64,000 bases of DNA, from NCBI GenBank assembly GCA_021323855.1, contig JAJPKE010000016.1, positions 1 through 64,000 on the forward strand, in the 5' to 3' direction. The notes beneath the pieces were generated by a model. The model ran no database searches, was not told the origin of the DNA, and was given only the letters and a program-made list of their open reading frames with translations. Source of the DNA: Chloroflexota bacterium. GTDB lineage: Bacteria; Chloroflexota; Ktedonobacteria; Ktedonobacterales; JADMIN01. The translations under genes and the position numbers were made by a program. Shown here one piece after another: positions 45,262 to 49,139 of the stretch. How positions within the stretch are numbered: the first letter of the stretch is position 1; each line of letters starts with the position of its first letter.

Positions 45262-45427
45262 GACGCGGCGTTCGCGGCACTCAAGTGCCGGCGCACGCTA
45301 GGGGACCGGCTGAAGCCGGAGACTGCCGCCGCGTACTCTGGGCTTTAGCCCCAACGTCCGTGCGTCGGCAATTTATTGCCGCGAGGCATGTTTGTTCGTG
45401 CGCCGGCACTTCAGTGCCGCGAACGCC
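45262..45427. repeat. family-2 repeat array after nuoN
   Basis: At least five palindromes: GGCACTCAAGTGCC, CCGGCTGAAGCCGG, GGGCTTTAGCCC, GGCAATTTATTGCC and GGCACTTCAGTGCC, with CGGCGCACG-type spacers. It begins right after the nuoN stop and, because of its many stems, may end the nuo transcript. Confidence 0.8.
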
Positions 45428-45456
45428 GCCACACTCGACATAATCTTTGTACTCTT

Positions 45457-45550
45457 CCAGTCTTGGTCATAGCGTCTCAGTCTCGTTCATCACCCAGGCA
45501 TGACCGACACTGGACGGGATGACCGAGACTGGACAGGATGAGTGAGACTG
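45457..45550. repeat. 14-bp unit cluster at 19-bp spacing (left of the ABC-2 permease)
   Basis: Units CCAGTCTTGGTCAT (45457) and its variant at 45477 are in one direction; ATGACCGACACTGG (45500), ATGACCGAGACTGG (45519) and ATGAGTGAGACTG (45538) are in the other, at an exact 19-base period. The same unit occurs in the cluster at 47455. Confidence 0.8.
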
Positions 45551-45780
45551 TCGTTCTCGCCACTATTCTTCAGTGTTGCCCATTTGTATCAGTTCTGCCC
45601 TTCGCCCTGGCATGGGCATCACTGGCGATGGTGGGCAGCACTGTGCTTTTAGCCGCTTCGCCAGGGAGCAACCGAACGCGAACCTTTTCAGAGGTTGGCT
45701 CGTGATAGGGGTGGTGTGCCAACTGCTGCGTGCTGGTATGCCATGCACGTACTCACTCCTTTCGACAGCAGGAGCGTTCT

Positions 45781-46734
45781 ATGACAACGACAGCCCTGAC
45801 AACATCCCAAGAGGTTACGCCTACCATCCAGCGCACGAATCCGCTGCTGAGCGTCATGACGTGGGAACTGCGGCGCTTCAGCAGCAATCGCATCTTCTGG
45901 TTTCAGGTCCTCGGATTCTTCTGCTTTCTGCTGCTAGTGCAATTTATTTTCAATAGTGAGGTTGCCAATCGCGCCTTCAGCGGCTCGGTGGCGGCTAGCA
46001 GCCCGTGGGGGTTGCTGCAACAACTTCCCTTCGGCTCGTTGATGTTGCTGTGCATGCTGCTGCCGTTTGTCAATGCCGATGGCGTGACGCGCGACCTGAC
46101 CCGTCGCACCCATGAGTTGCTCATGACGACCGCTGTGCCGAATTGGGCGTATGTCTGGGGGCGCTATCTGGTTAGTCTGCTCATGAGCCTGGGGCTGGCT
46201 ATTGTGGTGTTGGCTGCCATCCTGGTGGTGGGCTGGATACGCCATCTGGCTGACAGTGGTTATCCGGCGCCGGAGATTGGCGTTGTGCTGCTACTCTGGG
46301 TTGGCATGGTCATTCCAGCGACGGCACTCATCAGCAGCCTGAGCTTCGCGCTCGGCACGATCTTTCCGCGCCAATCTACGCTCATTAAAGTTATTCTACT
46401 GTTGGGCTGGTTTTTCGAGGCATCTATCATACCCGTCGCGCTGAATCTCACCTATGGTCAGTCCCTCCCTCCTTCCTGGCTTAGCGCCTGGGATCCAACG
46501 AGTTCAATTAGCGCATTCGCAACGCTCCATCAATATCAGACGGCCTGGATGAATCAGATTGGCCCAACCACCGGCGCAGCGCAGGCACAGCATATTTTCA
46601 TCACAGTTGAGAACACGGTTCCCAACGTCTCAAACTGGTTCGTGCCCCATCTCTTCCTCGCTGTATTGAGTCTGCTGCTGGTGGCGCTGGCCGCTCTTAC
46701 CTTCCAGCGATTCCGCAACGTCCGTGCTGGCTAA
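45781..46734 (+). CDS. ABC-2-type permease-like membrane protein
   Basis: 317 residues with about six TM spans, an N-terminal cytoplasmic stretch (PLLSVMTWELRRFSSNRIF, typical for ABC-2 permeases) and the segment VTRDLTRRTHELLMTTAVPN, which resembles the coupling region of ABC-2 permeases. The partner ATPase is not next to it, so it would have to work with an ATPase encoded elsewhere or form part of an unknown complex. AGGAG lies 6 bases before the ATG. Stands between two clusters of 14-bp repeat units. Confidence 0.75.
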   Translation: MTTTALTTSQEVTPTIQRTNPLLSVMTWELRRFSSNRIFWFQVLGFFCFLLLVQFIFNSEVANRAFSGSVAASSPWGLLQQLPFGSLMLLCMLLPFVNADGVTRDLTRRTHELLMTTAVPNWAYVWGRYLVSLLMSLGLAIVVLAAILVVGWIRHLADSGYPAPEIGVVLLLWVGMVIPATALISSLSFALGTIFPRQSTLIKVILLLGWFFEASIIPVALNLTYGQSLPPSWLSAWDPTSSISAFATLHQYQTAWMNQIGPTTGAAQAQHIFITVENTVPNVSNWFVPHLFLAVLSLLLVALAALTFQRFRNVRAG

Positions 46735-46892
46735 GAGCGCACGAGATACTACTCAGCGAGTGACTGTCTGGCAAAAAGTGCGCAAGATAGGAGAAGCGTT
46801 GGTCCTTGCTCCATGCTACAATGGCGTGCGTTTCCAGTAGCATACCTTTCCAGTGGGAAGGCACGGTATCAGCTAGTGAGGAGCAGGCAACT

Positions 46893-47429
46893 ATGACAGA
46901 CCAGGTAGCACCCCTTGCGATGTTCTACAAACCAGGGTGGGAGAACTATCAACGAGCCATCACCCAAACTATCGCCTCGCTTTCGTCCGAACAACTCGCC
47001 CTCTCTCTTGGACCAGATCAACGATCAATAGGCGAGCTTCTCGACCATATGATCGGCGCACGCTTCAACTGGTTCCACCTCTGGATGGGCGAAGGAGACC
47101 CCCACCGCGACTGGAATGATGATGAGGAGAATGGTGAGGGGAATACCGCGCCAACCGTGTACAAGCCAACTTCACTGGTCGCCATGTTCGAGAAGAGCTG
47201 GCGCGTGATCTCCTCCGCGTTGGACCGCTGGACCTCCGCTGATCTGGAACAGGTCTTTCCAGCCCCCGCCTCTCATCAGCAGTGGCTCCGTAATCAAGGG
47301 CTGGAAGAAGAGCCACCGCATACACGGCTGTGGATTGTCTGGCATGTCATGGAACATGAGATATACCACGGCGGCGAGCTTTCCCTGACGCTTGGCACGC
47401 ATGGTGTGGATAGTTTCTATACCTGGTGA
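46893..47429 (+). CDS. DinB-family protein
   Basis: 178 residues of the DinB/YfiT four-helix type: LSLGPDQRSIGELLDHMIGARFNWFHLW, with the first metal His, and RLWIVWHVMEHEIYHGGELSLTLG, with the HxxxHxxxG-like second metal site. Members are metal-binding, often thiol-dependent transferases; this one's substrate is unknown. ATG 46893 has AGGAG 9 bases upstream. Lies directly behind the ABC-2 permease, with about 160 bases between. Confidence 0.85.
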   Translation: MTDQVAPLAMFYKPGWENYQRAITQTIASLSSEQLALSLGPDQRSIGELLDHMIGARFNWFHLWMGEGDPHRDWNDDEENGEGNTAPTVYKPTSLVAMFEKSWRVISSALDRWTSADLEQVFPAPASHQQWLRNQGLEEEPPHTRLWIVWHVMEHEIYHGGELSLTLGTHGVDSFYTW

Positions 47430-47454
47430 GTATCAGATTGAGGTGAGTTCTTGT

Positions 47455-47529
47455 CCAGTCTCGGTCATCCTGTCCAGTCTGGGTCATGCGTGGGTGATGA
47501 CCGTGACTGAACGCAATGACCGAGACTGG
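47455..47529. repeat. 14-bp unit cluster at 19-bp spacing (right of the DinB gene)
   Basis: CCAGTCTCGGTCAT (47455) and CCAGTCTGGGTCAT (47474) are followed by ATGACCGTGACTG (47497) and ATGACCGAGACTGG (47516), inverted, with a 19-base period in each half. The cluster matches that at 45457. Confidence 0.85.
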
Positions 47530-47654: not shown

Positions 47655-48023
47655 ATGGATATGCAACGCAATACGCTTGCGGACCTGATAGCGGCGCGCG
47701 AACAATCTGGCAAGCTCTATCACGAATTTTTGCGCTTGCCCACGATGAGCGCGGGCCTCTATCAGTTGGCGGTGGGGGCGAGCGATCCGCAGCAGCCGCA
47801 CACCGAAGATGAACTCTATTATATTGTGCAAGGCCGCGCACAGTTGCAGGTTGGGCAGGAGCAGGTGCCCGTCGCGCCCGGCTCGCTGGTCTTTGTGGCG
47901 GCGAACGTAGATCATCGCTTCCATAGCATCACCGAAGACCTGAGCGTGCTGGTGTTCTTCGCCCCCGCCGAATATTCGCAATCGTCGCAATCGTCGCAAT
48001 CGTCGCAATCGTCGCGGCACTGA
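47655..48023 (+). CDS. cupin-domain protein
   Basis: About 122 residues. A single cupin fold: [22 protein letters not shown] (motif 1 with H-x-E-x-Y) and [17 protein letters not shown] (motif 2 with the second His). Cupins are metal-binding beta-barrels with many functions; the role is unknown. The last residues are a run of SQS units from a tandem 9-bp repeat, and the stop TGA lies within a family-2 repeat (GGCACTGAAGTGCC). So the original 3' end has been replaced. ATG 47655 has GAAAGGGG 10 bases upstream. Confidence 0.82.
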
Positions 48024-48898: not shown

Positions 48899-48960
48899 GG
48901 CGAATGAATTCGCGGCTGGATGGCGTACTGCCGCGAAGTCCGCCTGCGCGGACTGGAGAC
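48899..48960. repeat. family-2b repeat unit
   Basis: GGCGAATGAATTCGCGGCTGG, then CCGCGAAGTCCGCCTGCGCGGACT. The same unit occurs reversed near 43498-43562 and in part near 48045. It fills a good part of the gap between the CMD-like gene and the next unknown. Confidence 0.8.
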
Positions 48961-49139
48961 AGGAATATTCCAATGTCTCAGCGCAAGGTGGGTTTCTATT
49001 CTTACTGAATTAGGCAATGAGATATACAGTACATTTCTACCAGTATCTCTTCCACAACTCACAAGCTTGTGGGTAGCATATCTACAATCCATTCAGCACA
49101 ATAGAGTGGCAAGCCCGATACGCAGAAGGAGACCGCCCA

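Follow-up and report, generated by a model that had tools for sequence, protein, structure and literature searches.

Our analysis revealed that three short palindromic arrays in the window, the whole 64,000-nt stretch of Chloroflexota contig JAJPKE010000016.1 analysed here, are members of a previously undescribed family of putative protein-binding arrays. Members of this family share one geometry, carry a unit of their own at each locus, are linked to AAA_25 replication genes, and include both paired and solitary orphan copies. Related arrays lie immediately behind replication genes carried by mobile elements, so those in the window are probably stray copies of the site where such an element starts its replication. 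We put at about one half the probability that the family consists of initiator-binding, origin-type arrays of PrimPol/AAA_25 replicons, with the three in the window as orphan copies.

The window arrays are built from 14-bp units, listed here with the strand of each unit.

45457-45532, array A core: units 45457-45470 (-), 45477-45490 (-), 45500-45513 (+) and 45519-45532 (+); unit ATGACCGAGACTGG, centre CACCCAGGC
45538-45551, plus strand: degenerate fifth unit of array A (ATGAGTGAGACTGT), in phase at 19 bp
45570-45644, array C: units 45570-45583 (-), 45589-45602 (-), 45612-45625 (+) and 45631-45644 (+); unit about ATGGGCATCACTGG
47455-47529, array B: units 47455-47468 (-), 47474-47487 (-), 47497-47510 (+) and 47516-47529 (+); centre GCGTGGGTG

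The first-pass annotation had described nine units in two inverted clusters, and all nine were recovered in place. Cluster A (45457-45551) has two minus-strand units followed by three on the plus strand, and cluster B (47455-47529) has two followed by two; in each, two left-facing units and the remaining right-facing ones lie on either side of a 9-bp centre, giving the step patterns 14-6-14-9-14-5-14(-5-14) in A and 14-5-14-9-14-5-14 in B. The sequence ATGACCGAGACTGG was matched with at most two mismatches by eight of the nine units, against a chance expectation of 0.49, and none of 100 shuffles reached eight. The earlier exclusion of CRISPR was also correct, as 5-bp spacers and inverted arms differ from the direct repeats and 25-40 bp spacers of CRISPR. 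In contrast, the statement that nothing similar occurs elsewhere in the window was wrong: array C (45570-45644) has the geometry of A and B, with a different unit. We used a unit-blind scan, whose sole requirement is that four 14-mers in the array geometry resemble one another (maximum 84). It scored B at 75, A at 72 and C at 65, whereas the top score across 30 simulated windows (1.92 Mb) was 50. Furthermore, B repeats A in inverted orientation for 82 bp at about 88% identity, spacers and centre included; on the outside, the homology extends to the border of the outermost unit and no further. The inverted alignment scored 60 and the direct alignment 36, the latter being no better than that of either cluster with its own reverse complement.

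As had been claimed, A and B bracket a permease gene and a DinB gene; the cupin gene beyond B is probably outside the bracketed unit.

45781-46734, plus strand: ABC-2 family permease, first bracketed gene (PF12698, PF12679)
46893-47429, plus strand: DinB-family protein, second bracketed gene (PF05163; also mycothiol-S-transferase PF04978)
47655-48023, plus strand: cupin-domain protein, downstream of B (PF07883)

Homologues of the permease and DinB genes in relatives are neighbours neither of each other nor of nuoN. No close relative of the bracketed permease was found in GTDB contigs; a paralogue in the window's genome (C29:13985-14875, L053) shows 71% DNA identity and has no arrays. The neighbourhood contains other repeats as well. 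A 97% inverted pair beside array A (45265-45297 and 45397-45429) is built around CGGCACTN(C/A)AGTGCCG, and a related stretch of about 70 bp, seen at C12, occurs dozens of times in the window's genome and its family, with one copy in the window at 48899-48963. This CGGCACTN-related repeat is a different element from the arrays, abundant and REP-like. A tandem TCGTCGCAA repeat at 47976-48013, at the 3' end of the cupin gene, encodes a run of SQS residues.

Within the window's genome, the exact unit pair was found at A and B only, and exact-unit searches of 101 and 400 genomes returned the window and one other genome only; in the 400 phylum genomes, the exact pattern gave one extra hit, a Chloroflexi contig (L127, genome G196) with the unit ATGAGCAAAACTGG. 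Because the unit varies too much between loci, array searches needed covariance models, namely a palindrome model (R1) and a broader model (R2). R1 added arrays with other units, namely two around a DinB gene in a genome of the window's family (G004), and one in genome G168. R2 added arrays in the window's genome at C16 (two), C12 (a perfect pair and a nested outer pair), C22, C45 and C43, and arrays in two other genomes, G003 and G006. Among the 39 genomes searched with R2, strong arrays were limited to the window's family; outside the family, arrays were present in G168 and G196. In all, arrays were found in the window's genome, with no more than about a dozen copies, in three further genomes of the same family, and in two Chloroflexota from outside it. 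Searches of plasmid and phage collections yielded nothing relevant, and Rfam gave no match at the gathering score, only sub-threshold, hairpin-like microRNA matches. Unit matches on viral contigs were rejected as a single homologous coding gene that has one unit on either side, and four candidate loci (L136, L129, L131 and L154) as tandem repeats of other kinds.

The geometry 14-5/6-14-9-14-5-14 was kept at nearly all loci, with one centre of 10 and spacers of 4-7, and family loci scored 59-84 of 84 in the unit-blind scan against the simulated maximum of 50. Arrays usually have four units, although A and C12 are among those with five or six. Across 14 arrays (56 units), units agreed at 11.5 of 14 positions within an array and at 7.3 between arrays. 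Two positions are nearly fixed (T2 in 55/56 and G3 in 56/56), and only A or T occurs at position 10. The palindrome structure is thus kept while the unit sequence differs, as expected of a pRN1-type origin. The six possible unit-unit comparisons within arrays gave equal mean identity (11.4-11.9 of 14), suggesting that the four units are equivalent sites of one protein and not hairpin stem partners. The arrays fold as long hairpins; an RNA hairpin was nevertheless rejected as the primary reading, since outer-outer and inner-inner pairs show no greater similarity than other unit pairs. Because the four units look interchangeable, binding sites for a multimeric protein fit best among the three proposals of the first-pass annotation.

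The gene neighbourhoods point to a candidate for that protein. The arrays at L127 and in G168 occupy the same place, the last codons of an AAA_25 (RepA-like) gene, just before a TubC_N-domain gene. With this AAA_25 protein as query, 15 matches were obtained across nine genomes, and seven AAA_25 genes in four genomes had an array at the 3' end, each with its own unit: L127 and L216 in G196, L195 and L217 in G168, L214 in G004, and L212 (C16) and L213 (C43) in the window's genome. The last two, the former at L212 8944-11454, are the only AAA_25 genes found in the window's genome, a tenth of which is missing from the assembly. A PrimPol domain was found in L212, L214 and L195, and the neighbours include tyrosine integrases at L127 and L216 and a phage terminase at L212. 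At L216 842-4327 (G196), a GyrB gene with an intein lies near an integrative element. The second AAA_25 copy in G004 is decayed and, as read by eye, has a degenerate array pair around it. The window lacks an AAA_25/HTH gene, as do the DinB, Mo-oxidoreductase and other orphan loci, and none was detected in the incomplete assemblies G003 and G006, in which arrays are present. Unlike the arrays at the seven genes listed above, none of A, B and C is directly downstream of a PrimPol/helicase replication gene. An AT-rich unwinding element was absent beside the arrays, with flanking maxima about background at most loci.

In an alignment, the C-terminus of the AAA_25 proteins contains a helix-turn-helix (HTH)-like segment (ISEITLRRAK.ALG) followed by a wing-like segment. 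Pfam returned nothing convincing for the HTH region, and a single-sequence structure model of it was weak, without a resolved wing or a significant fold match. L127 and L216 are 87% identical in the AAA core, 84% in the HTH and 27% in the wing; their units have the first six bases (ATGAGC) in common and differ mostly afterwards. The wings of L195 and L217 are 86% identical, and their units are nearly alike. In a partial Mantel analysis of seven proteins over all permutations, with core identity removed and the unit split at position 6, a point picked after seeing one protein pair, the wing correlated with unit positions 7-14 (r=0.66, p=0.0036) and the HTH with positions 1-6 (r=0.53, p=0.021), while the crossed comparisons of wing or HTH with the other unit half gave negative correlations. 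Given the small sample and a split point chosen after one comparison, the co-variation of the predicted HTH and wing with the unit is suggestive. Among 47 relatives, the HTH-wing domain was found in G000, G004 and G013 only, and the first two are also among the four strong-array genomes (about p=0.02, hypergeometric, 39 genomes searched both ways). In G013, L261 encodes a 75-residue stand-alone HTH-wing protein; as read by eye, ATGATCAAAACTGG lies within about 70 bp, followed by a serine recombinase. This protein and ATGATCAAAACTGG are possibly a reduced form of the pair formed by HTH-wing and unit.

The fit with pRN1 and with the primases of mobile elements leads us to read the arrays as initiator-binding and origin-type. 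Each 14-bp site would be read by the C-terminal HTH and wing of a RepA-like AAA_25 helicase, often fused to PrimPol, with the HTH on the first half of the site, which holds the invariant TG, and the wing on the variable second half. Several subunits on the four sites might then assemble the helicase ring and open the DNA, and the array would serve as the replication origin of the element, like the palindrome behind rep in pRN1. Mobile elements encode such helicases immediately in front of an array of this type. On this reading, A, B and C would be orphans, either remnants of such elements or copies taken from them; the window retains no initiator gene, and A and B would be an inverted duplication enclosing the permease and DinB genes. 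We hold this reading at a confidence near one half, since there is no AT-rich region, no replication gene near the window arrays, and no explanation for the inverted duplication. An origin duplicated in inverted orientation around a DinB or restriction gene is unexplained and counts against the origin reading.

The paired arrays bring in the main rival, in which the arrays are ends of small non-autonomous mobile cassettes and a trans-acting enzyme recognises an inverted pair of arrays and mobilises whatever DNA it encloses. We regard this as possible but unlikely. Matched inverted pairs enclose the permease and DinB genes in the window (2.0 kb), a DinB gene in G004 (0.87 kb) and a Type ISP restriction-modification gene at C16 in the window's genome (3.8 kb). 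A further G004 pair (3.3 kb) surrounds AAA_25/PrimPol and a 215-residue ORF, and at C12 the array forms a perfect 94-bp inverted repeat, 450 bp apart. In the window and at C12, the duplicated stretch stops exactly at the outer unit edge, which favours cassettes, as does the separation of permease and DinB homologues in relatives. However, the C12 pair holds no convincing ORF, the inverted orientation of the G004 AAA_25 pair is weakly supported (32 vs 29), and homology is limited to the array itself. No target-site duplication was seen on inspection of the flanks, and no transposase inside the pairs examined. The comparison with relatives that the first-pass annotation had suggested gave no empty site, as synteny is kept neither downstream of nuoN nor at C12 and there is no syntenic relative. 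IS21-type elements have arrays of transposase sites about 20 bp apart; such ends were rejected, since IstA (NF033546) had no match in the window's genome. Arrays also occur singly, at C22, C45, C43, L239, L240, L127, L195, L216 and L217. The neighbours of solitary arrays include unrelated genes, such as a molybdopterin oxidoreductase, a second Type ISP gene and an AidB-like acyl-CoA dehydrogenase. Arrays are therefore not always paired, and the earlier proposal of cassette ends is half right, in that matched inverted pairs do enclose genes at several other loci; many solitary clusters at unrelated intergenic sites had been named as the sign of a general interspersed repeat, and the solitary arrays come close to that situation.

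Other observations concern these loci. The arrays of a pair in G006 are 0.3 kb apart. Between the C12 halves, a 28-bp unit (TATGTTCTATACCGCCTTATGGCGTCAT) is repeated about four times (L236 7508-7640). The two Type ISP/IIG restriction-modification genes of the window's genome (L212 5354-8755 at C16 and L237 10175-13072 at C22) both adjoin arrays of one common unit family, and for the C16 gene a further analysis agreed with the restriction-modification assignment.

A combination of the two readings, in which PrimPol/AAA_25 initiators recognise inverted array pairs and amplify or move the DNA between them, with a specificity that evolves with the wing, seems to us improbable. If it were true, chromosomal genes, among them DinB, an ABC permease or a Type ISP restriction gene, would be mobile passengers.

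It is likewise improbable that the arrays are REP/REPIN-like interspersed extragenic palindromes without a dedicated role at these genes, possibly RNA hairpins or sequences mobilised in the RAYT manner. Like REPs, they are intergenic, often 3' of genes, with several unit families per genome and pairs in opposite orientation (PMC3733652), and their folding as long hairpins agrees with this. However, REP elements would be expected in hundreds of copies and not in about a dozen, the equivalent units show no stem-partner preference, no Rfam family covers them, and their place behind AAA_25 genes is systematic. A similarly improbable reading, a multimeric regulator bound to operators at A and C upstream of the permease gene and at B upstream of the cupin gene, accords with the location of all three arrays 100-330 bp upstream of start codons and with four equivalent sites suited to cooperative binding, but other arrays lie at gene 3' ends or inside the AAA_25 coding end, no regulator gene recurs beside the orphans, and the unit changes between loci of one genome.

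The initiator-binding, origin-type reading can be compared with known systems. The inverted matched ends around cargo in the window, at the G004 DinB locus and at C16, and the likewise matched and inverted C12 pair, resemble those of transposons or cassettes. REP/REPIN sequences are also small extragenic palindromes; the arrays differ in being low-copy and tied to AAA_25 genes. In the origins of SaPI and lambda (gene O) and in P4 ori/crr, initiator-specific repeats lie in or beside the initiator gene, and the unit differs between elements. The arrays are similar to these iteron origins in having repeated sites with about two helical turns per step, but they are arranged 2+2 in inverted orientation around a 9-bp centre, without an adjacent AT-rich region. 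In RSF1010, the iterons are read by a separate RepC, and the ssi sites are single hairpins, whereas in the family one array type appears to serve both roles. The RSF1010 oriV system, as partly set out in the discussion of PMC4234260, resembles the family in combining a RepA helicase (AAA_25 in the family) and a primase, RepB', with two inverted palindromic sites, ssiA/ssiB.

The closest precedent is pRN1, which has been compared with P4 (PMC4234260). Its Rep protein, made up of PrimPol, helicase and a C-terminal winged helix, depends on a stem-loop of about 100 bp located immediately downstream of the rep gene. Between pRN plasmids, this stem-loop is the only part whose sequence is not conserved, although its structure is (PMC4234260). 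The family likewise has a long palindrome directly behind a PrimPol-helicase replication gene, divergent in sequence and kept in structure. In contrast to pRN1, its helicase is a RepA-like AAA_25 protein and not SF3, its palindrome consists of four repeated sites at a fixed 19-bp step, and orphan pairs flank unrelated genes. Replication proteins that join PrimPol and helicase occur widely among the mobile elements of bacteria, which also commonly encode primases fused to RepA-family helicases and winged helices (PMC5862659). The C-terminal winged helix of such primases has been predicted, without proof, to recognise the cognate origin (PMC5862659). The arrays behind PrimPol/AAA_25 genes are concrete candidates for its DNA targets, so that this proposal becomes testable. 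If they are origin-type, the arrays would serve as a marker by which such replicons could be found together with the origins they have shed, among them copies on either side of restriction-modification and other host genes.
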